Made by a program: the position numbers and the translations under genes | NCBI GenBank assembly: GCA_029263395.1 | Contig: JAJCXO010000121.1 | Location: 1 to 64,000, forward strand | Direction of reading: 5' to 3' | Origin: Acidobacteriota bacterium | Lineage (GTDB): Bacteria > Acidobacteriota > Thermoanaerobaculia > Multivoradales > J023 | Length of the DNA: 64,000 nt | Shown: one piece after another, positions 16,914-40,440 of the stretch | Position numbering within the stretch: the first letter of the stretch is position 1 | Layout of the letters: every line of letters begins with the position of its first letter | Notes under the pieces: generated by a model | What the model was told of the DNA's origin: nothing | What the model saw: only the letters and a program-made list of their open reading frames with translations | Databases searched by the model: none

Positions 16914-17837
16914 CTAACTCCGGTGGGATCCGCTGGTATCGACAATACCGCCTTCTGCTTCTCGATCCACCGGCTGAGCGACGAGGGGGTGGCCTTGTAA
17001 CACGCAGCGCAGCCATGCTGCGGCCATCAGGGTGGCGTCGAATCGATCGTCATCGGAGGTGACGGCCTCACGTTCTGGCAGTTGGACGTTGTAGTCGTCG
17101 ATCCATGGTGAGCTCGACAATGCGTCGAACGCTGCGTCTCGGGCTTCGCGGCGGCTCTTGGACAGTTTTCTGGGCGCCGCCGGCAGAACCGACGCCAAAG
17201 CGGTGCCGTAAGCCGCCTTGGGGTAACCCTCAGCCAGCACGATGCCATCGGTTTGGCCGAGAGCGTCCAGATCACCCTCGAACGGCCACACCCTGAACCG
17301 CCTTTGCGGATCCGGCAGCAGCTTTCGCAGCTCCCGCCACAGCTCGAGGCTTGCCGATCCCACAGATCCGGGAATCCCGCGCACGATAAACACCGGGTTA
17401 CCACCCAGCGCTTCCTCAACCCGTCGCCGCGGCTCCCACGTCGCCGCCTGTTCGAACCTTCGCCGCCCACCGACGCCTGTCGGCACTGCAAAAAACGGCC
17501 GTTCCGCCGCCAGCTGCGCCACCTCCGTCGCCGCCTCGAAGAAGTGTGGCAGCGTCTGTGTCGTCGGTAGCCAATCCAGAAACGTCATGCCCTCCCGCCA
17601 GCCCGGAGCCTGCCGCAGATAACTTTCCTGCACCCCGATTACCGCGTCGATCCCGATCAGCACCGAGCCGTCGAGCTCGGTCTCAGCGAAGTCGAGCAGA
17701 GCCGCCAGGGTCCATGGGAACCGCTCCACCAGCTCGAGTCGTCGTGTCTGCACGTCGGCATGGCACACGGCACGTTTGGCGGGGCCTTTGGCCCAGTCCG
17801 CACACAAGATGTGTCGCCAGGTGTCTGAGGAGCTCAA
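16914..17837 (-). CDS. DUF429-like predicted nuclease (RNase H fold)
   Basis: A 307-residue protein resembling the DUF429 group, thought to have an RNase H-like fold. The first strand holds CADWAKGP (Asp14) and the next IGIDAVIG (Asp63), which would supply two metal-binding acidic residues. A late SDDDRFDATLMAAAWL has further aspartates typical of the family's C-terminal helix. Its start overlaps the stop of the CHAT-FGE gene by 4 bp (ATGA), so the two are translationally coupled. Whether it cuts nucleic acid is inferred from the fold only. It would be the possible toxic effector at the end of a protease cluster. Confidence 0.55.
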   Translation of the reverse strand: MSSSDTWRHILCADWAKGPAKRAVCHADVQTRRLELVERFPWTLAALLDFAETELDGSVLIGIDAVIGVQESYLRQAPGWREGMTFLDWLPTTQTLPHFFEAATEVAQLAAERPFFAVPTGVGGRRRFEQAATWEPRRRVEEALGGNPVFIVRGIPGSVGSASLELWRELRKLLPDPQRRFRVWPFEGDLDALGQTDGIVLAEGYPKAAYGTALASVLPAAPRKLSKSRREARDAAFDALSSSPWIDDYNVQLPEREAVTSDDDRFDATLMAAAWLRCVLQGHPLVAQPVDREAEGGIVDTSGSHRS

Positions 17838-19855
17838 AAGTTTCCTTCGTTGTTGATCTCGCGCACGACGCGGAATCCGGTCTCTTTACGAGTTTCGTCG
17901 TCCGCTTTGACCTTCCATCGGGTTGCGGTAAAGGCGCAGCCAGATGGAGCGTTCTTGAAGGATCCCCCGAGGCGCAACGCCTTGTTGTCCTCGCGAGGCC
18001 CGTCATCTTCGGGCCAATCGACCCATTCCGCAACGTTGCCATGGACGTCGTAAAGACCCCAGGCGTTGGGTTTGTAGGACCCAACAGGTGCGGGGCCATC
18101 AAAACAGTCTTGGCCGAGATAGTTACTACAGTTCCCATACAGATGCAGTTCCGTTGGCTGGTCACCAAAGTGATAACTGGTCTCGCTGCCGGCGCGGGCA
18201 GCAAATTCCCATTCGTCCTCGGAGGGCAAGCGGTAGACGACGTCGGGATCCCGGCTGGTGAGTTGGGTGAGGAATAGACTCACGTCATCGATAGTGACGT
18301 CTGTCATCGGCCAATCGGTTGGCCAGTCGGGGCGGCGAAGCCCACCCCCCATGACTTGCTGCCAGTCGCGTCGACTGACTTCTTTGGTGGCGATGCAAAA
18401 GGCATCTTCGACAACAATCTTGCGCTCTCCAGTGTCGACAACGTCGGGCTCAATGGCGACAAATTCGAGGTCCTCGAGGCCCATTGGGGCGGGGCAGGGT
18501 GACGGTGTTTCGTCGAGGGTGGCATCACCAGAATCGGTGGATTCAGTAGATGGGTGGGACGGTTGTTGATCCGGGTCTCGGGGCAGAAGGTTCCAGAACG
18601 AAGTCACCAGCAGACCCGTCACCAGCAGACCCGCCAACGCGAGCCCGGCGATCGGTTTGCTGATGCTGCGGAATCCTGATCTTGCCGGTGCTGCAAACAA
18701 CGCCGATGGGATGCTCGGAGGTGCGGTGAAGATCCTGACGTTGGCCTCTCTCAAATAGACGGCAGGTGTTGCCCATTCAGCCCGTCGCTCGCCCAACGCC
18801 AACGGGCGTCGTGCTTCGACGAGGCTGGCCTCGATCGTCTTACCCAGGGCGAGTTGCCGGTAGAGGGCGACGGCGAAGGCCACCGCCGCGGAGTCTGAGA
18901 TCGCAGTTCGCATTGCGACAACGGCGGTGACCCCTCGGCTGAGAAGGCGCTGTGCCAGACCATCGAATGCGTCATCGATGGTCGTTCGGGCGCCGTGGCA
19001 GGCATTAATCACGACGAGGCGCGGCGGGGTCCGTCGTTCGAGTGCACGAGCAAGGTCGCCGCCGCTGATCTCGTCCAGGTCACCGGTCGCCGTTTCCAGG
19101 TGCAGCAGGCCACCATCGCCCGAGCTGCCAGCGCCGCCGTGCGCCACAATGTGAAGGACGTGGCAGGGACCGGCGTCGATCCGTTGGCCAAGCTCATCGA
19201 GGGTGGCTGGGGTGATGCGATCGACCTCTACCGTGCCTGCTTGGTGCAGTGGCGCCAGTTGGTCCTGAATCTGTCGCCATTCGGTGGCACCTCCGAGCTT
19301 ACGCTCACCTCGTGGCTCCGGCAGCAGCGCCAGCATGCGCAACGGGCCAGTAGCCATCAGCTTGATGGGTCGTCCTGGTTTGACCCGCAGGGTTCGTACG
19401 ATCGGCAGATCAGCTTGATCGGCCAGGAACGCCTTCATTTCTGGGTCCCACAATGCTTCCCATGGCAGAGGGGCGAGCTCCGCAACCTCATCGAGTTTGA
19501 GGCAGATCCGCAGCCCCTTGCTCTGGCTGCGTACTCGCTCAATCGATGTGCGGTAGGCCTCGGCGATACGACCGACGAAGGCGGTCCGGAAGAGGCGTTC
19601 CCCTACTGACCTCAAATCGTCACGGTCCACGGCCTCGCGGTGTACATCCCGGGTGTTGCTGGTTGGCTCTCTGACGACCGGAGAGTCCATCGTCAAACCC
19701 GCCGGGTCGATTTCGACCGGCGGCCTTTCGCCATCCGGCGAGGCCGTGACGCTGGCACGGTAGACCTCTCCGATCCGCTGAATCGACAATTCGAAGGTTT
19801 CGAAGTGGTCGGGAACGGAACGTTCGGACGAGTCATGGCGAGGTGGTGAATCCAT
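17834..19855 (-). CDS. CHAT protease - TM - FGE/sulfatase-modifying domain fusion
   Basis: A 673-residue three-part protein. Residues 1-380 hold a CHAT domain, a clan CD cysteine protease, with His239 in HIVAHGG and Cys286 in INACHGA. One membrane helix follows (about 402-423). A formylglycine-generating-enzyme-like (FGE/SUMF1) domain ends it (about 465-670), with the family's RLPSEDEWEFAARAG, GLYDVHGNVAEW and TGFRVVR motifs. With no signal peptide, the protease would face the cytoplasm and the FGE domain the periplasm. FGE-like domains without enzyme activity often bind ligands. The start at 19855 has a strong GGGAGG ribosome site 7 nt away. A 196-bp gap separates it from the metacaspase gene. 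Confidence 0.8.
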   Translation of the reverse strand: MDSPPRHDSSERSVPDHFETFELSIQRIGEVYRASVTASPDGERPPVEIDPAGLTMDSPVVREPTSNTRDVHREAVDRDDLRSVGERLFRTAFVGRIAEAYRTSIERVRSQSKGLRICLKLDEVAELAPLPWEALWDPEMKAFLADQADLPIVRTLRVKPGRPIKLMATGPLRMLALLPEPRGERKLGGATEWRQIQDQLAPLHQAGTVEVDRITPATLDELGQRIDAGPCHVLHIVAHGGAGSSGDGGLLHLETATGDLDEISGGDLARALERRTPPRLVVINACHGARTTIDDAFDGLAQRLLSRGVTAVVAMRTAISDSAAVAFAVALYRQLALGKTIEASLVEARRPLALGERRAEWATPAVYLREANVRIFTAPPSIPSALFAAPARSGFRSISKPIAGLALAGLLVTGLLVTSFWNLLPRDPDQQPSHPSTESTDSGDATLDETPSPCPAPMGLEDLEFVAIEPDVVDTGERKIVVEDAFCIATKEVSRRDWQQVMGGGLRRPDWPTDWPMTDVTIDDVSLFLTQLTSRDPDVVYRLPSEDEWEFAARAGSETSYHFGDQPTELHLYGNCSNYLGQDCFDGPAPVGSYKPNAWGLYDVHGNVAEWVDWPEDDGPREDNKALRLGGSFKNAPSGCAFTATRWKVKADDETRKETGFRVVREINNEGNF
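18603..18632. repeat. 15-bp tandem duplication in TM segment
   Basis: Two identical 15-bp copies GTCACCAGCAGACCC lie head to tail. On the minus strand they code for GLLVT twice, lengthening the membrane helix of the CHAT-FGE fusion by five residues. Confidence 0.85.
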
Positions 19856-20051
19856 GAAGCTTCCTCCCAGGCTGATCAATATGTACTCGAAGGTCGTTCC
19901 ATTGTACGCCTTGTCCGATACAGCCATGGTGGCTCGGGCGTCTCGTGGCTCCACAGGCCAGCTTTCCTGCCGCCGTGCGGATTCTTGGAGCCGGAGCAAC
20001 TGTCAGAGGCACTGTGATCCATGAGACCCGAGCCGACGCCAAAGGTTGAAG

Positions 20052-21347
20052 CTACCGGCTGCGCAATCGATAGGGCTTAGCGATGGCCGCTGTCAGGACG
20101 ATGGCGGCCGGCGAGTTGTCGATAGAGCCGCCGAGCAGACGGGCGGCTGAGATGCGGGCACCGGAGGCGAGGAGGAGCAGATGCCCGGTGCCGCACGAGC
20201 CAGCGGGATGACCTCTCGGCAGGTGGAGATGCATGGCATCGCCGGGACGATCGCCGATGGTGAGCCGGGTGCCGGGGTCGAGCAGTTCGTGGCCTTCGAG
20301 GTCTGGGAACAGCAGGCTTACACTGCCGGTCAGGCCGATATCGAGCAGGTAAACGAAAAGCTCTCGAGGGTGAGTGTGGTGGAGGTCGACACGCAATCGG
20401 TCGCCGACCCAGAACGCTGCACCCTCAGCAGGCAGCCAGGCGCCACCGTGCGAGCGATAAAGCGCCATCGTGAGACCGAAGGGATCGGGCTGATCCGCAA
20501 GTTTGAGCAGAGCTCGTCTGGGGTCATAACCGCGGCTGGTTGATCGATCATTGCCAAAGATTGGCCCGTCGAGACCATCGCCTGAAAGTTGAGGGTGCTG
20601 TTCCTCGTGGCTGTCTTTGATGCATTCGGTGGCGACGCCTTCGAAGAGCTCACGCCAGGTCACCCCCGGATCGGCCTGTCGTAGGGCGTCGATGAGCCGC
20701 AGACTGAGAATGCCGCGGGGCTCGCCAGCAATCTTGGGGGGCAGCTCGTAAGCTAGCTCATGGTCCTTGCAGGCGGCAATCATCAGCGGCCTGGGGCCGG
20801 TTTCGACGTCGCGCCAGCGGGGAATGAGGGAGCGCGGCAGCTGATCAACCGGACGTTCGTCGGTTGGGACGGAGCGTACTTGAAAAGGCGGCCGGTGCAG
20901 GGTTGCCGCATGGCAGCAGTCGAAGATCAGGGTCAGATGGGGTGTCTTCTCGAGGACACGGGCGGCCCAGTGGTTGACCTCGTCGTCGGTCAGGTCGCGA
21001 TTTTCGTCGCGGTGTCGGCCGCTGTCGAAGGGTACGAAGGTCTCGTCGAGTCCGTCACCTTCGTCACCCTCGCGATCGGTCATCTGTGAGCCGTGACCGG
21101 AGAAGAACAGTACGACGTGATTCCCTGTGCCGACGCGGCGAGCCAGGCGGTCGAGGGCGTCCAGTACGGCTTGGCGAGTTGCGTTCTCGTTGAGCAGGGT
21201 TTCGACATGCTCCGGAGGGAAGCTGTAATGTTCGATTAGCACCTCGGTCATGCGCTCGGCGTCGCGGACAGCGCCGAAGAGTTGGGCCTCTGGACCGAAG
21301 CCTGGATAGTCGTCGATACCGATCACCAGGGCGTGGCGACGACTCAT
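20052..21347 (-). CDS. Metacaspase (peptidase C14 family)
   Basis: A 431-residue caspase-fold protease. It starts RHALVIGIDDYPG, the usual first strand of p20 domains. His85 is in SGHGSQ and Cys145 in DCCHA, the catalytic dyad. Metacaspases cut after Lys or Arg and often need calcium. Residues about 110-125 are rich in Asp/Glu. The last 150 residues are all-beta and resemble the DUF4384-type domains found behind bacterial caspases. Its ATG overlaps the stop of the C25-like gene (ATGA), so the two are translated together. No signal peptide, so it is probably cytoplasmic. Confidence 0.88.
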   Translation of the reverse strand: MSRRHALVIGIDDYPGFGPEAQLFGAVRDAERMTEVLIEHYSFPPEHVETLLNENATRQAVLDALDRLARRVGTGNHVVLFFSGHGSQMTDREGDEGDGLDETFVPFDSGRHRDENRDLTDDEVNHWAARVLEKTPHLTLIFDCCHAATLHRPPFQVRSVPTDERPVDQLPRSLIPRWRDVETGPRPLMIAACKDHELAYELPPKIAGEPRGILSLRLIDALRQADPGVTWRELFEGVATECIKDSHEEQHPQLSGDGLDGPIFGNDRSTSRGYDPRRALLKLADQPDPFGLTMALYRSHGGAWLPAEGAAFWVGDRLRVDLHHTHPRELFVYLLDIGLTGSVSLLFPDLEGHELLDPGTRLTIGDRPGDAMHLHLPRGHPAGSCGTGHLLLLASGARISAARLLGGSIDNSPAAIVLTAAIAKPYRLRSR

Positions 21348-22657
21348 GTTGTGGGCATCGCGGCTGGCAGACGCACCGCGGGGTCTCCGATCAACGACCA
21401 GCTATGCGCATCTTGGTAGGCGCGCCAAAGGTCGAGGGAATCGGTGGGGGCCGAGGCGGAGTCGATGCGAGACCGCGCCCAGGTGATCACTAAGTCGGCA
21501 TACCGCTGACCAAAACCATCCAGCGCTTCACCCAGTCGCCGACCTTCGAGCAGGGCCAAGAGCGTGTCCTCAAAAGGGCCGATCTGAGAGACGCCGCGCC
21601 ACACGAAGGATGCGGGAAACGCTCTGCCGACATGGCCGATGACCGCCAAGGCGCCACCCTCACGGCCCAGTAGTCGCTGAGCAATTGCCGAAACAAAAGG
21701 CTGGCGGGTCAGCGGACGTGTTTTGCTGACACTGTCGAAGACATCGAAACGTGGCGTACCGACGGTATGGCAGCCGAAGAGCATGGCGACGCCGCCGGGG
21801 AGAGAGCCTACTGGCAGATCCTGTGCGGTCACCGTGTAGCGAGTCGGAATGCTCTTGCACTGTTTTGGCCCTGGCCATTCGGCACAGACCAAGGATCCTT
21901 GAAGCCGCCGCTGGCAGTCGATGTCGGGCTCAAACACTGTGGCGTGTCCAGCGGTGATCAAGAGGTCTGGTGCACCCGCGATCAAGTTGAGCAAGCCAGC
22001 CCGACGAGCGTCGTTCTCGAGCAAGACCGAGCAGGCAAGTTTCTGGTCGAGCAGGGTTCGTATCGGCTGGGCGAAGTAGTCGATGCACTCGCGGGTTGCT
22101 GAGTCGTCAGGGTGGGTCGGTGCAAACAGAGCTGCTTTGGGAGGGCGCCGAACGACCCGTTCTTCTGATGCTACGACGCGTTCAGCGTAAGCCGCCAGAT
22201 CGTCGATTGCATCGAACGCCAGGCGGCCGATGGCATGAGGCACGCCTAGGTCAAGCTCGAAGCCGTGAGGTATCTCCGCGGGAGTTCCCACCAGCAACAA
22301 ATACCAAGGCACTTGCCTGGCGTCGACCCGACCAAAACCCGCCCGCAGGTGATGACGAAACGTCGCCGCGTCTTGACCTGAGCGGTAGGTCAGCTCTTGG
22401 TAGAGGGATCCCGCCTGACGTTGGCGCAGGGCCAGCAGTGGACCGAGGGCGTCGCGCACACTGGCATCGACACCCTCGGGAAAGACCACCCCCCAACTCG
22501 CACTGGCGAGGTCGCTGCTGGCGACACCGTAACGGGCTGGCCGTGGACGCAGAGCGTCATCAACCCAGCGTCTGGCCTCGGCTTCGGGGATCGGATCCAG
22601 GAGTCGACCAGTGGTACCGTCGACTCCCAGAATCCTCAGCAGGTGGTCTTCGGTCAT
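21344..22657 (-). CDS. Clan CD, C25 (gingipain)-like cysteine protease
   Basis: A 437-residue protein I assign to the caspase-fold clan. DLLITAGHAT gives the probable catalytic His238 and AMLFGCHTVG the Cys296. The closing WSLIGDPAVRLP matches the LxGDPxxxL ending usual in C25 peptidases. The N-terminal 115 residues have no recognised domain, though PWYLLLVGTPAEIP (118-130) resembles the first strand of C25 domains. It lacks a signal peptide, unlike secreted gingipains. It lies 11 bp after the repeat protein and overlaps the metacaspase start by 4 bp. Family assignment is by motif only. Confidence 0.65.
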   Translation of the reverse strand: MTEDHLLRILGVDGTTGRLLDPIPEAEARRWVDDALRPRPARYGVASSDLASASWGVVFPEGVDASVRDALGPLLALRQRQAGSLYQELTYRSGQDAATFRHHLRAGFGRVDARQVPWYLLLVGTPAEIPHGFELDLGVPHAIGRLAFDAIDDLAAYAERVVASEERVVRRPPKAALFAPTHPDDSATRECIDYFAQPIRTLLDQKLACSVLLENDARRAGLLNLIAGAPDLLITAGHATVFEPDIDCQRRLQGSLVCAEWPGPKQCKSIPTRYTVTAQDLPVGSLPGGVAMLFGCHTVGTPRFDVFDSVSKTRPLTRQPFVSAIAQRLLGREGGALAVIGHVGRAFPASFVWRGVSQIGPFEDTLLALLEGRRLGEALDGFGQRYADLVITWARSRIDSASAPTDSLDLWRAYQDAHSWSLIGDPAVRLPAAMPTT

Positions 22658-22668
22658 GCGCCCCGAGC

Positions 22669-22965
22669 TCAGTCCGGTTTGCCGGTGCCTTCTAGGCCGC
22701 CAGCTTTGGGATCGGATGATGTCGGGTCGTCTTTGTGTTGTCCGACGCCATCGAAGCCACCGGCTTTGGGGTCGGATGATGTTGGGTCGCCGTCGTCTTT
22801 GTGTTGTCCGACGCCATCGAAGCCACCGGCTTTGGGGTCGGACGAGGTCGGGTCACCGTCGTCCTTGTGGGTGCCGGTGCCTTCGAAACCGCCAGCTTTG
22901 GGGTCGGACGAAGTCGGGTCACCATCATCTTCTTGTTTGTGGACGAGCGCCGGGTCTGTCGCCAT
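22669..22965 (-). CDS. Small four-repeat acidic protein
   Basis: A 98-residue protein made almost wholly of four copies of a 22-residue unit, DPTSSDPKAGG(F/L)(D/E)G(V/T)G plus an HKDDG linker. It has no predicted helix or membrane segment and should be disordered. The ATG at 22965 follows an AAGGAG site at good spacing and lies inside the end of the TPR-CHAT gene (41-bp overlap). The third and fourth copies lack or vary the linker. Each copy contains two lysines (DPK, HK), so it could be a substrate or decoy for the Lys/Arg-cutting proteases beside it. That is inference; no family is recognised. Confidence 0.75.
   Translation of the reverse strand: MATDPALVHKQEDDGDPTSSDPKAGGFEGTGTHKDDGDPTSSDPKAGGFDGVGQHKDDGDPTSSDPKAGGFDGVGQHKDDPTSSDPKAGGLEGTGKPD
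22690..22950. repeat. 66-bp tandem repeat, about four copies
   Basis: The coding repeat of the small protein: each unit is 66 bp and the two middle units are almost identical in DNA as well as protein, which indicates recent duplication or conversion. The outer copies are more diverged. Confidence 0.8.
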
Positions 22966-25513
22966 GATCTGTCTCCTTGAATTGTTGGGGATCTTGCGAT
23001 CCATCGGTTGATTCATGGGACCCGCTTTTCGCCGGAAGGTTGAAAGTGTTCGAAGTTTCGCCGTCTCCAAGTAGTACAAAAGCCGCCCACTCCGAAGGGG
23101 TTGCGCCCTCCTGAATCATGTCGCGTTTGGCTTGGCGCAGCGCACTTGCCGAGCTCTCTCCCGTTTGTAGGTAGCGGTGGAACGCCGTCATGAGCTTGGC
23201 TGTCGGCTGGTCGGTTACCGCCCACTGGCTAGCGATGACGGTCGAGGCTCCAGCGCGGAGAAAAGCACGCGGCAAACCCAACGTACCCTCGCCGAACACC
23301 AGCGGTCCTTCGGCGGTACTACACGCGCTCAGCACCACGAGTTGGCCGCACAGCTCGGCGAACGCCAATTGCTCGGGGTAGAGATCACAGGGGCCGTCTA
23401 CTGGACCCTTGATCCCCATGCACGAAAGGGCAATCTTGGATCGCTCCGCGATCTCCAAATTACTCAGGGCATGGGATGCGATATGTAGTGTTCGATGCTT
23501 TGAAGCCTCGGAGAGGAGCCGTTGGCGTGTAGCGTCCTTACGCAGAAGAATCGTCGCACTGTCGTCTGGGTAGAGTTGTGCGATATTCAAAACTTCTTGG
23601 CCGCTACCCTCGAGCCGCTGGAACATCAACGCTTCGTCGTCGTTGCGCCTATAGGGAGCATCCTCGGGCCATTCCTTGTCTCGCTGACCGAAGAATGGGT
23701 CGCCAACAGCCAAGATCTGTTTTGTTGGTTGGGGGCACATCATCGCTCGATCCCTCAGCAAAGAGAGGACGGATAGCGATGGCACGTAGGAGATCTCATG
23801 GCTTTCGATGAGAAACTTGCCGGTCCTCGGGTGGGTCAAGAGGCCGTACGGTAGTCTGGTGAGCGGGGCATCGGCCACAATGACCAGCCGCTCGACCGAC
23901 TCGAGTCGCCCGGTGAGCGGATGAAGCAGGGCTTCGCTGAGCCAACGGATCTCTGCGTCGAGTTGTAGCACGTCCGACTTTTGGTCGGCTTTCAAGGCTG
24001 CCGCAACCTCACTCGCCTTGGCCTCGATCTGCTGCAGATCAGCTGGAAGCGTCGATAGTTCCAGTTGGCCACGATCATCGAGAGTGACGAGATGGAGCGC
24101 TTGGTTGCCGGCGGCGAATAGTAGGGCAAGGGTTTTGTTATCAAGTAGAGCCTGCGCCTCGGCCAGCGTCATCGGTGATTGCTGCGTGTCAACACCAGCG
24201 GTTGCCAACTGTTCGATTTGCAGCTTCTTGAGTAGGCGTGTTCGAAGTACAGCATGGCGGTGAGTCTTCACTGCCTGTTCGGCCCCTGGCTCTACGAGAT
24301 CGAGCTGTAGAACAGCATCAATCAGTTCTTTGCCGTGAGCGATAAGCTCTTCTTTGCTCGGCCCTCGAGTGTTGGTGAGCCCCATTGTTGGTTTACCGAG
24401 CTCGGTGGCAAGAGTACGTGCCTGAATGCGCTGCAGCGTAGCCCACGCATCCTTGGCGTCGTTCGAAGCAGCAGCGATATCGAGCCGATGTTGGTAGTAG
24501 TCCTGCCGAAGGTCGATGTAATGGAGTTCCAAGGCAGACCACGGATCCCGTGGGTCCTCCAAGACAGACAGTCCAGCATCCGCAGCCACTCTAGCGTCTG
24601 CAAAGTGCCCGAGTGCGAACAGAGCCACCGACTTCGCGTAGTAAGCGTGGGCTTTCATGTTGGGGTCCGAGAGTTCGTTCGCTGCTGCTAGCTCAAGCCC
24701 GAGGTTTGCTTCGCCCAGCGCTCGCGACCAGTTGTTTCGGCGGATCTCCAATTCGGCACGATCTGCGAACAGGTTGGCTCGTAAGCGAACGTTGCCAGTC
24801 TTGTTCGCAGATTTCAGTGCGTCGTCGAGCAAGGCGGCCGCTTCATCGAGTTGTCCGGTATCCATCAACAGGCGAACCTGCTCCATCTTCAGCGTGGCGC
24901 GGTCCGTGTCGTTCGGCGCGATGAGGAGCGCTTCGTCGATTGAGGCCTCGGCATCGGCGCTCTCCCCGAGTAGTCGGTATGCTCGAGCGAACTGCAGCAG
25001 CATGCCGACGATATCTTCAGGCGAAGAACCGAATTGTCCGTAAAGAAGCTGGGCACGATGCAGTCGATCGATGGCCAAGTCTGGCCGCCCAAGGCGTACC
25101 AAGGCTGCGCCAAAATTGTGCTGGAGTTTGGCTTCCTGATTCCCTTTGGACGTGGCCTCGCCTTTGCCGTGGGCAGTAAATTTGTGGATTGCCTGCAACC
25201 CTAGGTCGAGGTGAGGCAAGCTTCTGGCCAAACGCCCTACTCTTGTGTAGTGCCAACCGAGAATGCTCCGGGTGCGAGCTTCTTGGATAAGACAACCCCG
25301 CGTTTGGGCCGTTTCGAGAACTTCATGCAAGGCGGCAACACCGGCAGTCTTGTGACCAGCCTCCAAGTCCTCAGCGGCTTGGGTGATCGTCGGGCCGAGA
25401 TCATCACACCGGTTCGTGGCCTCCGTCGACTTTGCGCCAGTTGCTAGCAATAAGCCAGCGCAGAGGGTACTGACGAAGGCTGCTAACCAAAACGACTGGC
25501 GCTTGATGGTCAT
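22925..25513 (-). CDS. Exported TPR-CHAT protease
   Basis: An 862-residue protein with a signal peptide (1-27), several TPR-like helical repeats (about 35-400) and a C-terminal CHAT domain (about 560-840). The catalytic pair is His681 in LHIASHALS and Cys731 in LSACSTAEG. The conserved GEGTLGLPRAFLRAG and ASQWAVTDQPT segments follow. CHAT is related to separase and caspase proteases, and TPRs usually sense a partner. The signal peptide suggests it works outside the cytoplasm, where it could cut the periplasmic part of the membrane anti-sigma encoded 5 bp upstream. The C-terminal 40 residues are hydrophilic and overlap the next gene. Confidence 0.85.
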   Translation of the reverse strand: MTIKRQSFWLAAFVSTLCAGLLLATGAKSTEATNRCDDLGPTITQAAEDLEAGHKTAGVAALHEVLETAQTRGCLIQEARTRSILGWHYTRVGRLARSLPHLDLGLQAIHKFTAHGKGEATSKGNQEAKLQHNFGAALVRLGRPDLAIDRLHRAQLLYGQFGSSPEDIVGMLLQFARAYRLLGESADAEASIDEALLIAPNDTDRATLKMEQVRLLMDTGQLDEAAALLDDALKSANKTGNVRLRANLFADRAELEIRRNNWSRALGEANLGLELAAANELSDPNMKAHAYYAKSVALFALGHFADARVAADAGLSVLEDPRDPWSALELHYIDLRQDYYQHRLDIAAASNDAKDAWATLQRIQARTLATELGKPTMGLTNTRGPSKEELIAHGKELIDAVLQLDLVEPGAEQAVKTHRHAVLRTRLLKKLQIEQLATAGVDTQQSPMTLAEAQALLDNKTLALLFAAGNQALHLVTLDDRGQLELSTLPADLQQIEAKASEVAAALKADQKSDVLQLDAEIRWLSEALLHPLTGRLESVERLVIVADAPLTRLPYGLLTHPRTGKFLIESHEISYVPSLSVLSLLRDRAMMCPQPTKQILAVGDPFFGQRDKEWPEDAPYRRNDDEALMFQRLEGSGQEVLNIAQLYPDDSATILLRKDATRQRLLSEASKHRTLHIASHALSNLEIAERSKIALSCMGIKGPVDGPCDLYPEQLAFAELCGQLVVLSACSTAEGPLVFGEGTLGLPRAFLRAGASTVIASQWAVTDQPTAKLMTAFHRYLQTGESSASALRQAKRDMIQEGATPSEWAAFVLLGDGETSNTFNLPAKSGSHESTDGSQDPQQFKETDHGDRPGARPQTRR

Positions 25514-25518
25514 TAGTC

Positions 25519-26283
25519 TCAGTCCAAGGAGACTCGAAAGATGAACGGCTGCCCGCTGCTTTCGGCGGGCGGTCCAAGGAGTATTTCGTAGGCCCCTTCA
25601 TCCAACAGGTCCGACTTCGTCACGCGAAAATAGACCGAGACTTGACCGGCCTCGAAGGTGATTTGCCGTACACGAATTCGTCGTCCTTTCGAGTCCAGCA
25701 ACTCGACCGAGATTTCGCCACCACTCTCCGGTTGTTCTAGCGCGATCTCAAACTGAATCCCAACCGCCTCGGTGGGCACGGTTACGGTGCCGCCGCGGTA
25801 GATCTCGTCCGTGACCGTCACCAAGTGGTAATGCTCATCTGGCAATTTGGCCTCATTCAACGTCAACCACCAGCCGGCCCCCAGTCCACCGATCAGCATT
25901 GCCGCCAGCCCCACCAGTGCCCGACGTAAAGACGGCCTGGAAAAACGAACCACGTTGGTATCGACCGTCGGAGGGGTCCCACCACCCTCCAGCTTGGCTG
26001 ACAGTGCCCCCCACGCCGCCTCGACATCGGCGTCAGTGTCGAATCCCGGAGTAGGCTCGACGGCCGAGCTGTCGAGATTGGGCAAACGTTGCAATTCTAG
26101 GTAGGTGGCGGCTAGCTCCGGGTCGACGGTGAGCCACTCGCGGACTCGTTCGGCCTCGGAGTCCGACAACACGCCGTCGTGCAACGCGGCTAGCTCCTCC
26201 ATACCAGGGGGTTTGCCGAGGTGGGCACGCTCACGCTCGGCCAGCGTGGCAATATCCCTCGAGAACGTTGAATTGGATGCCAT
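25519..26283 (-). CDS. Anti-sigma-factor-like membrane protein lacking zinc ligands
   Basis: A 254-residue protein. Residues 28-70 (AALHDGVLSDSEAERVREWL) follow the pattern of the anti-sigma domain (ZAS), but the usual HxxxCxxC is missing: VDPELAATYLELQ replaces the CPxC segment. One membrane helix (121-141) and a periplasmic all-beta domain of about 100 residues follow. Such proteins hold an ECF sigma factor at the membrane until proteolysed or altered by a signal. It begins 4 bp after the sigma gene and ends 5 bp before the TPR-CHAT gene, so the order is sigma, anti-sigma, protease. Its role is inferred from position and the partial domain match. Confidence 0.6.
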   Translation of the reverse strand: MASNSTFSRDIATLAERERAHLGKPPGMEELAALHDGVLSDSEAERVREWLTVDPELAATYLELQRLPNLDSSAVEPTPGFDTDADVEAAWGALSAKLEGGGTPPTVDTNVVRFSRPSLRRALVGLAAMLIGGLGAGWWLTLNEAKLPDEHYHLVTVTDEIYRGGTVTVPTEAVGIQFEIALEQPESGGEISVELLDSKGRRIRVRQITFEAGQVSVYFRVTKSDLLDEGAYEILLGPPAESSGQPFIFRVSLD

Positions 26284-26287
26284 GGCT

Positions 26288-26824
26288 TCAGTCTCCCAGG
26301 CGTTTCAGGTCGACTTCGAGATCGGGGTAGTGTTTGGCTAGTTTGGAGCGCAATCGCGGCCGTGCCAAGGAAAGTTGGGACTTGGCGGTTTCTATCGTGA
26401 TGCCCAGAACCGTCGCGATCTCACGATACTTCATGTCTTGATAGACCCGAAGCTGGACGCAACGTTGCATTTTGGGTGGTAGCTCGTCGATCGCTGATTG
26501 CAGCAATCGCAGGCGCTCGTCGCGGATCGCATGATCCAGTGGACGACCCTCGGGGTCGGGTAGCGCATGATCGTCCTCTGGCAGTGGTACTTCGTCGCCG
26601 GTGCGTTTGATGGCGTCGGTGTCGCGGAGGCGATTGCGCCAAACATTGCTGGCGATAGTGAATAGCCAGGTGGACCGTTTGGCGTCGCCACGGAACGAGT
26701 CGAAGGCGCGATGGGCCCGTAAGAAGGTCTCCTGCGCCAAGTCTTTACACTCTTCCTGTGAGCAGCCGCGCTTGCCGAAGAAGCCCAGCACCGGACGATA
26801 CAGCTCACGGAAAAGCTCTTCCAA
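26288..26824 (-). CDS. ECF-type sigma-70 factor
   Basis: A 178-residue RNA polymerase sigma factor of the extracytoplasmic-function type. Region 2 covers about 10-75 (DLAQETFLRAHRAF, then STWLFTIASNVWRN). Region 4 covers about 115-170 (LRVYQDMKYREIATVLGIT and TAKSQLSLARPRLR). Regions 1.1 and 3 are absent, as usual. It starts with TTG at 26824; AAGGAGG lies 5-6 nt upstream. A 7-bp hairpin (26848-26864) sits in the leader. As first gene it probably drives its own operon, but no clear ECF -35/-10 pair was found. Confidence 0.9.
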   Translation of the reverse strand: MEELFRELYRPVLGFFGKRGCSQEECKDLAQETFLRAHRAFDSFRGDAKRSTWLFTIASNVWRNRLRDTDAIKRTGDEVPLPEDDHALPDPEGRPLDHAIRDERLRLLQSAIDELPPKMQRCVQLRVYQDMKYREIATVLGITIETAKSQLSLARPRLRSKLAKHYPDLEVDLKRLGD

Positions 26825-39321: not shown

Positions 39322-39558
39322 CCCTCTTGGCGTGTTGAAATCGCTCCGCTATGCTTTTGTTGAGCATGCATGCCAGCCTGCGCTGGCTCTGCTCTTGGAT
39401 GCGATCCTCGGATATCATCGAGGGCGCTGGCGGCTGTCGAGCCGTTGCAGATCATCTCGATGAGAGGCCGAATAAAGCCGTCGATCCGGTCTTCGATCAA
39501 ACGGTATGCCTGCTAACCTGATCGGGGTGGTTAGACGCCAACCGTCACGCCACGCGAT
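39322..39558. other. Non-coding stretch upstream of arrays
   Basis: No gene is supported here. CTAACC (39513-39518) and GGTTAG (39529-39534) form a small inverted repeat just before the first array. Otherwise nothing stands out. Confidence 0.6.
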
Positions 39559-39768
39559 GCGTCGAGCAGTTTGGACGCCAGAATCGCCAAAACATCGGAT
39601 GTGTCGAGCAGTTTGGACGCCAGAATCGCCAAAACATCGGATGTGTCGAGCAGTTTGGACGCCAGAATCGCCAAAACATCGGATGCGTCGAGCAGTTCGG
39701 ACGCCAGAATCGCCAAGACATCGGATGCGTCGAGGAGTTTGGACGCCACAATCCTCGAAACATCAGTG
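39559..39768. repeat. 42-bp tandem repeat array, five copies
   Basis: Units begin at 39559, 39601, 39643, 39685 and 39727, exactly 42 bp apart, each starting G(C/T)GTCGAGCAGTT. The first four are nearly identical and the fifth is diverged. Because 42 is a multiple of 3, three frames stay open and give 14-residue repeats, but substitutions show no clear coding bias. No spacers, so not a CRISPR. Confidence 0.9.
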
Positions 39769-40017
39769 AACGACGTCTTCCCTCCGGCCAGCAGGGTGGA
39801 TCCGAAGCTCGACAACACATTCCGAGCCTGTTTTTAGGAGCGCAGGAGCGTCAACGACGCACTGTTGGTGTGTCCCTCCGCTGATTTTCGGCTCTCCTAC
39901 GTCTCACTTGACCCGGTGGCGATCGTAGTTCAGCGGGACAACACGTCCGCTAGCCCATCGGCCGTGCGATCGACGTTCGTCTGGGCTGTTGAACGAGGGG
40001 TTAAACCCTAGCGCCTT
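39769..40017. other. Non-coding gap between two arrays
   Basis: No gene is supported. The stretch holds a GGGGTTAAACCC palindrome-like block (about 39998-40009) and nothing else recognisable. Confidence 0.5.
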
Positions 40018-40440
40018 GGCCTAGCCGGATCGCCTCGACGAGCCGGGTCAGGCTGTTTCGTCACTTGCCGAATCGCCTCGCCGAGCCATGTCAGGCCGTT
40101 TCGTCACTTGCCGAATCGCTTCGACGAGCCATACCAGGCCGTTTCGTCACTTGCCGAATCGCCTCGCCGAGCCATGTCAGGCCGTTTCGTCACTTGCCGA
40201 ATCGCCTTGACGAGGCGCGTCAGTCTGTTTCGTCACTTGCCGAATCGCCTTGACGAGGCGCGTCAAACGGCGTTGTCATGCCAAAATCGATCAGCCGAGG
40301 TCCGTCAAACCGTGTCGGCACTCGACGAATCGACGGCGAGCCTCCGTCTGATCGATTCGGCATCTGCAAATCGGATGTACGAGCCGCGTCACCGCGCTTC
40401 GGCATCTGTAGATTCTAGCGGAGGCCGTCAAGGCCCGATG
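40018..40440. repeat. 43-bp tandem repeat array with decaying right end
   Basis: TCACTTGCCGAATCG recurs at 40061, 40104, 40147, 40190 and 40233, exactly 43 bp apart. From about 40260 to 40430 further units of about 42 bp with CGTC(A/T) starts are strongly diverged, giving roughly ten copies in all. A 43-bp unit shifts the frame in each copy, so it cannot code a regular peptide repeat. Not related in sequence to the 42-bp array on its left. Confidence 0.85.

Follow-up and report, generated by a model that had tools for sequence, protein, structure and literature searches.

Bacterial proteases of the caspase clan are common, and both their restraint and their targets are mostly unknown. The locus described here places a 98-residue protein with four repeated units between the genes of a TPR-CHAT protein and a gingipain (C25)-like peptidase. 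This raises the question of what the small protein does and which of its neighbours it serves. The window, meaning the whole 64,000-nucleotide stretch of DNA that was analysed, holds the gene in a minus-strand operon composed of the following features.

26288..26824, minus strand: ECF sigma factor that opens the operon; start codon uncertain (TIGR02937, 7e-30; Pfam Sigma70_r2/r4_2)
25519..26283, minus strand: anti-sigma-like membrane protein (NCBIfam antisigma, 1.1e-5, below the cut-off; sequence)
22925..25513, minus strand: TPR-CHAT protein with an N-terminal signal sequence (PF12770, 3e-60; TPR models)
22669..22965, minus strand: repeat protein (P0001), four units, 98 aa (ORF translation, composition, AlphaFold)
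21344..22657, minus strand: gingipain (C25)-like cysteine peptidase (P0004; family alignment, AlphaFold, Foldseek)
20052..21347, minus strand: C14 caspase/metacaspase-like protease (PF00656, 1.9e-25; PADLOC caspase, 6e-24)
17834..19999, minus strand: CHAT-TM-FGE-sulfatase-fold protein, start codon uncertain (PF12770, 2e-26; PF03781, 1e-27; hydrophobic stretch)
16914..17837, minus strand: protein with no Pfam or NCBIfam match, retained in the cluster of a same-genus relative

About 15 loci of the bacterial order have the same succession of sigma factor, anti-sigma factor, TPR-CHAT and C25-like peptidase, often followed by a C14 or CHAT-TM protein, and the sigma gene is also found upstream in about 15 related loci. 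The CHAT His/Cys motifs of the TPR-CHAT protein, IASHA and LSAC, were found by eye. An N-terminal signal or lipobox-like stretch is present, as a sequence pattern, in most TPR-CHAT proteins of these operons, including the CHAT-C25 fusions. This pattern, read by itself rather than with a dedicated signal-peptide program, suggests that TPR-CHAT is exported. The repeat protein has no signal sequence, and therefore the two products may occupy different compartments. The anti-sigma-like protein would have a cytosolic N-terminus, one transmembrane segment and an extracytoplasmic C-terminal domain. Because it adjoins an apparently exported TPR-CHAT, the anti-sigma factor (25519-26283) might be a target of the CHAT protease outside of the cytosol, much as RseA is of DegS. 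In the product of 17834-19999, a cytosolic CHAT part would place the FGE part outside of the cytosol.

The open reading frame at 22669-22965 translates to MATDPALVHKQEDDGDPTSSDPKAGGFEGTGTHKDDGDPTSSDPKAGGFDGVGQHKDDGDPTSSDPKAGGFDGVGQHKDDPTSSDPKAGGLEGTGKPD. Its ATG lies inside the final 41 nt of the TPR-CHAT gene, 7 nt downstream of a strong ribosome site, AAGGAG, and the ATG of the C25-like gene follows its stop codon by 11 nt. These features bear out the original prediction of a real gene translationally coupled between TPR-CHAT and C25-like genes. The ribosome site and the repeat units are positioned as follows.

22973..22978, minus strand: Shine-Dalgarno sequence AAGGAG of the repeat ORF (sequence)
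22855..22920, minus strand: repeat unit 1, DPTSSDPKAGGFEGTGTHKDDG (TRF and unit comparison)
22789..22854, minus strand: repeat unit 2, DPTSSDPKAGGFDGVGQHKDDG (TRF and unit comparison)
22729..22788, minus strand: repeat unit 3, DPTSSDPKAGGFDGVGQHKD (core as in unit 2, with 3 silent differences in 16 codons)
22681..22728, minus strand: core of repeat unit 4, DPTSSDPKAGGLEGTG, followed by KPD and the stop (unit comparison)

The unit core is DPTSSDPKAGG(F/L), and TRF reports a 66-bp period with 3.1 copies and a score of 291. The protein had been described as four 22-residue units; the number stands, and the length is slightly inexact because the last unit lacks "GD", giving core spacings of 22, 22 and 20 residues. 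With nine Lys, no Arg, 9% hydrophobic residues, 30% P+G and a net charge of -13, the protein has a composition that agrees with its AlphaFold model (limited by its single-sequence input; mean pLDDT 51.8, pTM 0.11, no secondary structure). It is thus predicted to be disordered, as had been proposed. The gene is single-copy in the genome. No match to the protein was obtained in Pfam, NCBIfam, PADLOC, PDB sequences, phages or plasmids, in keeping with the earlier statement that no family could be recognised. Searches of relatives returned, apart from the same-genus genome G001, only weak matches (E>0.005) that were taken as chance. A scan of the window against Rfam, which would have pointed to an RNA-level explanation, gave no match, and promoter and terminator scans gave signals no higher than in shuffles. 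Two other identities were considered and rejected. A multicore RiPP precursor does not fit, as the Pfam matches of the cluster include no modifying enzyme and the FGE-fold protein would need a Cys target, which P0001 lacks. A bacterial gasdermin would be of another size and would have a membrane-active segment, which is absent here.

Codon comparisons indicate how the units have been maintained. Between units 2 and 3, the 16 codons compared show 3 changes, all silent (pS 0.24), the remaining pairs in the window have a pS of 0.38-0.55, and pN is 0-0.11 for all pairs. Over all pairs of window and G001 units, there are 32, 16 and 103 differences at codon positions 1, 2 and 3, respectively. The G001 orthologue, MVTDPNPIHKEGDDCDPTSADPKAGSFDSAGRNKEGDDCDPTSSDPKAGGFESTGKPA, has two units, lies in the same place and has a stop codon that overlaps the C25 start (TGATG). 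Across the whole repeat gene, pS is 0.60 and pN 0.18 between the two relatives, close to the 0.64 and 0.16 of the C25 neighbour. By these two independent comparisons, the repeat gene is coding and its units are under purifying selection. The recent duplication once read from the middle repeats holds only in part: units 2 and 3 are the closest pair, and the other pairs are more diverged. Given this silent divergence and the two-unit orthologue, units 2 and 3 are no very fresh copy. The difference between two and four units also means that unit number shifts between close relatives. Gene conversion among the units may add to their likeness.

The downstream gene (21344-22657) had been called C25-like. 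A Pfam search of P0004 found no family, Peptidase_C25 included, and the assignment comes from structure prediction. The AlphaFold model (pLDDT 84.1, pTM 0.86) has the C25 fold; Foldseek against the PDB places gingipain K (Kgp) first (E=1.8e-11), followed by RgpB (6.5e-10), which upholds the label. In the family alignment, H238 is invariant and C296 is invariant or nearly so, and they form the putative catalytic pair. The gingipain-like family is also widespread beyond Acidobacteriota (L063-L142: Chloroflexota, Cyanobacteriota and others), mostly with no adjoining TPR-CHAT found.

The interval between CHAT and C25 was read in every related locus found, and a counterpart in the same position of related clusters, which was sought, is present. 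In addition to the two-unit orthologue, about 20 related loci have a free-standing, Shine-Dalgarno-preceded, disordered ORF between TPR-CHAT and C25. These ORFs encode 43-98 aa (128 aa in one case), and most of the products are acidic with a high content of Pro and Gly. In L037 and L045 the segment extends the N-terminus of C25, L205 has a short extension of this kind, and in L202 it forms a C-terminal tail of CHAT. In L042, L044, L060, L062 and L207, it is the linker of a single polypeptide that contains both TPR-CHAT and C25. Across these varied fusion states, a disordered inter-enzyme segment is thus always present, and what changes is how it is covalently joined. This suggests that the segment sits N-terminal to C25, as pro-regions do. 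Searches with the gap proteins of L052 and L040 found nothing above noise except themselves. On this sequence evidence, the short disordered proteins are a real, selected and fast-evolving class tied to the TPR-CHAT/gingipain-like operons of one Acidobacteriota order, and the four-unit protein of the window is the most repeated member among those seen. In the open-licence literature on CHAT or C25 in these contexts, this arrangement was not found described.

Several of the gap sequences share a motif that is roughly (D/E/N)-P-K-x-x-G-(F/Y/L). The window has DPKAGGF four times, one with L, and G001 has DPKAGSF and DPKAGGF. Related forms are DPKPAGF (twice) and EPKPVGL in L052, HKPVGF and FKPVGF in L053, NPKTGY in L036 and EPKTGF in L051, and the fused linkers of L042 and L207 contain DPNKGEGY and DPGKGSSY. 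The sister locus L040 aligns with the window unit over GDPTQTDDTAKAGGGLPLEG. Of 26 other gap proteins or linkers, 5 contain the strict motif (shuffled mean 0.09; 0 of 2000 shuffles reach the count), at 7 sites as against 0.025 expected from long ORFs. Because the pattern was defined after viewing the sequences, the window and G001 units themselves were scored as well, against every sequence and shuffles of it. The likeness exceeds composition overall (Fisher p = 3e-5) and in the protease-clade members (5e-4). Many gap proteins, such as those of L041, L048/L049, L054 and L061, are without the motif.

On the C25 tree, the motif loci cluster in a clade of modest support (92/84, or 90/62 without the outgroup). 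The distribution of the motif was then followed on trees of both enzymes from the same 27 loci. The motif label requires 3 changes on the C25 tree (shuffled mean 6.4; as few in 1 of 500 shuffles), whereas the CHAT tree requires 4 (as few in 10 of 500). When the label is extended to L037 and L040, the values are 2 changes (0 of 500) and 5 changes (10 of 500), respectively. The tighter clustering on the C25 tree favours C25 as the partner, although the CHAT tree is poorly resolved and the operon partly co-inherited. Small Shine-Dalgarno-preceded ORFs also trail TPR-CHAT genes that have no C25 neighbour. The strict motif is absent from these trailing ORFs; the two listed matches, L033 and L051, are C25 loci. 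Specificity of the motif for C25 is therefore partly supported, given the poor resolution of the CHAT tree and the existence of such ORFs.

Amplification of units is not limited to the window. Internal repetition exceeds that of 300/300 shuffles (p=0.003 each) in 7 of 28 sequences: the window (four units), G001 (two), L052 (three), L053 (two), L206 (two) and the C25 extensions of L037 and L045 (two each). The gap ORF of L206 (G026:C116) has two 25-residue units that are identical as protein and differ by 9 silent and 0 replacement codons in 25. This is a strong sign of selection on a repeat unit that occupies the same slot and is unrelated to that of the window. The units of L053 differ by 3 silent and 0 replacement codons in 6. 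The significant repetition in seven sequences, together with the silent differences, points to several independent origins in the same slot, after which the units were held by selection. Single-unit versions are found in L036, L051 and L040. Neutral growth of the array in the manner of a minisatellite, within a short ORF or linker that the cell could do without, would be compatible with the other tandem arrays in the window (39556-40257 and 4-116) and with the tolerance of disordered regions for expansion. Set against the silent-biased differences among units and orthologues, the strong Shine-Dalgarno sequence, the conserved slot and the shared motif, it is very improbable.

Since related bacteria have quickly changing versions of it in the same slot, the repeat protein is probably no stray repeat and serves the adjacent gingipain-like protease specifically, as a regulator or a substrate. 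The reading that we favour, tentatively and at somewhat less than even confidence, is that the repeat protein is a stand-alone, disordered, multivalent partner peptide of the C25-like peptidase, in effect a detached pro-segment. It is the most economical because the segment is placed much as a pro-region would be, some loci have it joined to C25, its distribution follows the C25 tree, and the propeptides of gingipains act in trans as inhibitors of their cognate enzymes (PMC3677877). Purifying selection, the conserved slot, the sharing of the motif and the Kgp fold match also speak for it. Each unit of ~20 residues, with its motif, would dock on one C25-like peptidase molecule, the units being independent docking sites. 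A docked unit would restrain or position the peptidase until the peptide is taken away or displaced by a competitor, and the TPR-CHAT, sigma and anti-sigma proteins would be the upstream sensing and expression arm. Binding to C25, inhibition or positioning, and release are what we infer from the arrangement of the locus. The likeness to propeptides concerns position and context and does not extend to family membership. Kgp and RgpB of Porphyromonas gingivalis have a segment N-terminal to a C25-fold peptidase (PMC3677877), whereas here the segment is mostly a separate gene, of 43-98 aa, disordered and often repeated. Gingipain propeptides are domains of ~200 aa, which counts against the pro-segment reading; no prodomain of that size is present in the 98-aa disordered chain, which has no family or PDB match. 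The compartments also do not fit simply, since the fused CHAT-C25 chains seem to be exported and the free peptide has no signal. Moreover, the small proteins trailing TPR-CHAT without C25 mean that the partner could be TPR-CHAT.

Cleavage of the repeat protein, rather than docking, is a possible though doubtful alternative. As a multi-site substrate, a role suggested earlier alongside those of decoy and timer, it would have its units cut by a protease of the operon, releasing short peptides or ending a signal. A disordered and accessible chain of identical units amid protease genes is suited to this role, and it has nine Lys and no Arg. Among solved folds, the C25-like enzyme next to it is closest to the Lys-specific Kgp, so this enzyme may cut at Lys. 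In homologues, however, Pro can come directly after the conserved Lys (DPKPAGF in L052, HKPVGF in L053), and Pro right after Lys is a context that most proteases refuse. The suggestion that the lysines are of the kind that metacaspases cut after thus found no support. A TPR-CHAT protease has precedent as the cutting enzyme, in that Csx29 cuts Csx30 from the same locus (PMC10028731). Those studied so far, though, have no Lys requirement, their cuts falling at L|D, M|K and A|S (PMC11106740), and the TPR-CHAT of the window seems to be exported while the peptide does not. Multivalency itself could instead be the function. As a scaffold, the repeated motifs would gather C25, C14 or CHAT molecules for proximity activation, as in caspase platforms. 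We consider this unlikely: tandem units did arise repeatedly and were kept by selection, but an adaptor domain is absent and the single-unit versions indicate that multivalency is not essential. A disordered platform peptide that gathers gingipain-like peptidases within an ECF-sigma/TPR-CHAT signalling operon and jointly holds them or switches them on, with unit number setting the threshold, is likewise a minor prospect.

The peptide may also serve TPR-CHAT or the sigma/anti-sigma pair instead of C25, as Csx30 does in Craspase loci. We give this only a small chance, and it is a live rival because of the Craspase parallel and the small ORFs that trail TPR-CHAT without C25. The overlap of the repeat ORF with the CHAT gene and the co-occurrence of a sigma factor with TPR-CHAT in type III-E CRISPR loci (PMC10028731) are in its favour. 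Against it, the strict motif is missing from the trailing ORFs without C25 and tracks the C25 tree better than the CHAT tree, and Csx30 is a 565-residue multi-domain protein. In Craspase, cleavage of Csx30 by Csx29 frees a sigma factor, CASP-sigma, and the operon described here resembles that system in that its locus, too, combines TPR-CHAT with a sigma factor and a dedicated partner protein (PMC10028731). The window cluster differs in that no CRISPR effector was seen, the anti-sigma factor is a membrane protein, TPR-CHAT is predicted to be exported, the partner is small and disordered, and C25-like and C14 proteases are added. P0001 had no PADLOC or PDB match that would indicate similarity to Csx30.

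Other conflict systems share parts of this arrangement. The EACC1/EACC2 and ECF-sigma-linked caspase systems, as they are presented in the relevant sections of PMC7159879 and PMC8195603, also combine a caspase with ECF sigma and TPR genes. The C14 protease of the window matches NCBIfam caspase_w_EACC1 weakly (39.5 bits; cut-off 140), and a gene for the EACC1 single-TM domain protein, which in that system lies 5' of the caspase gene, was not recognised in searches short of a dedicated EACC1 profile. The core of the cluster here is TPR-CHAT plus the C25-like peptidase, and a short repeat peptide does not appear in those sections. The FxSxx-COOH-type precursors with dedicated peptidases, in the portion of PMC7159879 that treats them, are likewise small, fast-evolving proteins that adjoin a peptidase in a conflict-type operon and have a short motif better conserved than the rest. 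That portion gives them a zincin peptidase and a conserved C-terminus, with the FxSxx type also having a radical SAM enzyme, whereas neither zincin nor radical SAM enzyme was seen in the window cluster.

The short slot peptides of about twenty related operons are named, small and testable candidate partners for orphan proteases. If they are detached pro-segments or multivalent platforms, they would represent a compact form of protease control, with an evolutionary series available from fused linker to N-terminal extension, free peptide and repeated peptide.

Further features were observed in the window and in related loci. Downstream of TPR-CHAT genes without C25 (L187, L193, L211, L171 and L146), ORFs of about 130-160 aa have similar Gly-rich tails, and GVMGAEEGG, GVMGGSSGG, VFGAEEDGGG and FGAEEGG may be a recognition tail. 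In L236-L240 (G012, G025, G018, G013), chains of about 1560-1680 aa join a lipobox-type TPR-CHAT to a gingipain-like domain. Within the window, two adjoining minisatellite-like arrays that are apparently intergenic lie at 39556-39764 (42 bp, 5 copies) and 40024-40257 (43 bp, 5.4 copies), and positions 4-116 hold a tandem array of 42 bp in 2.7 copies.
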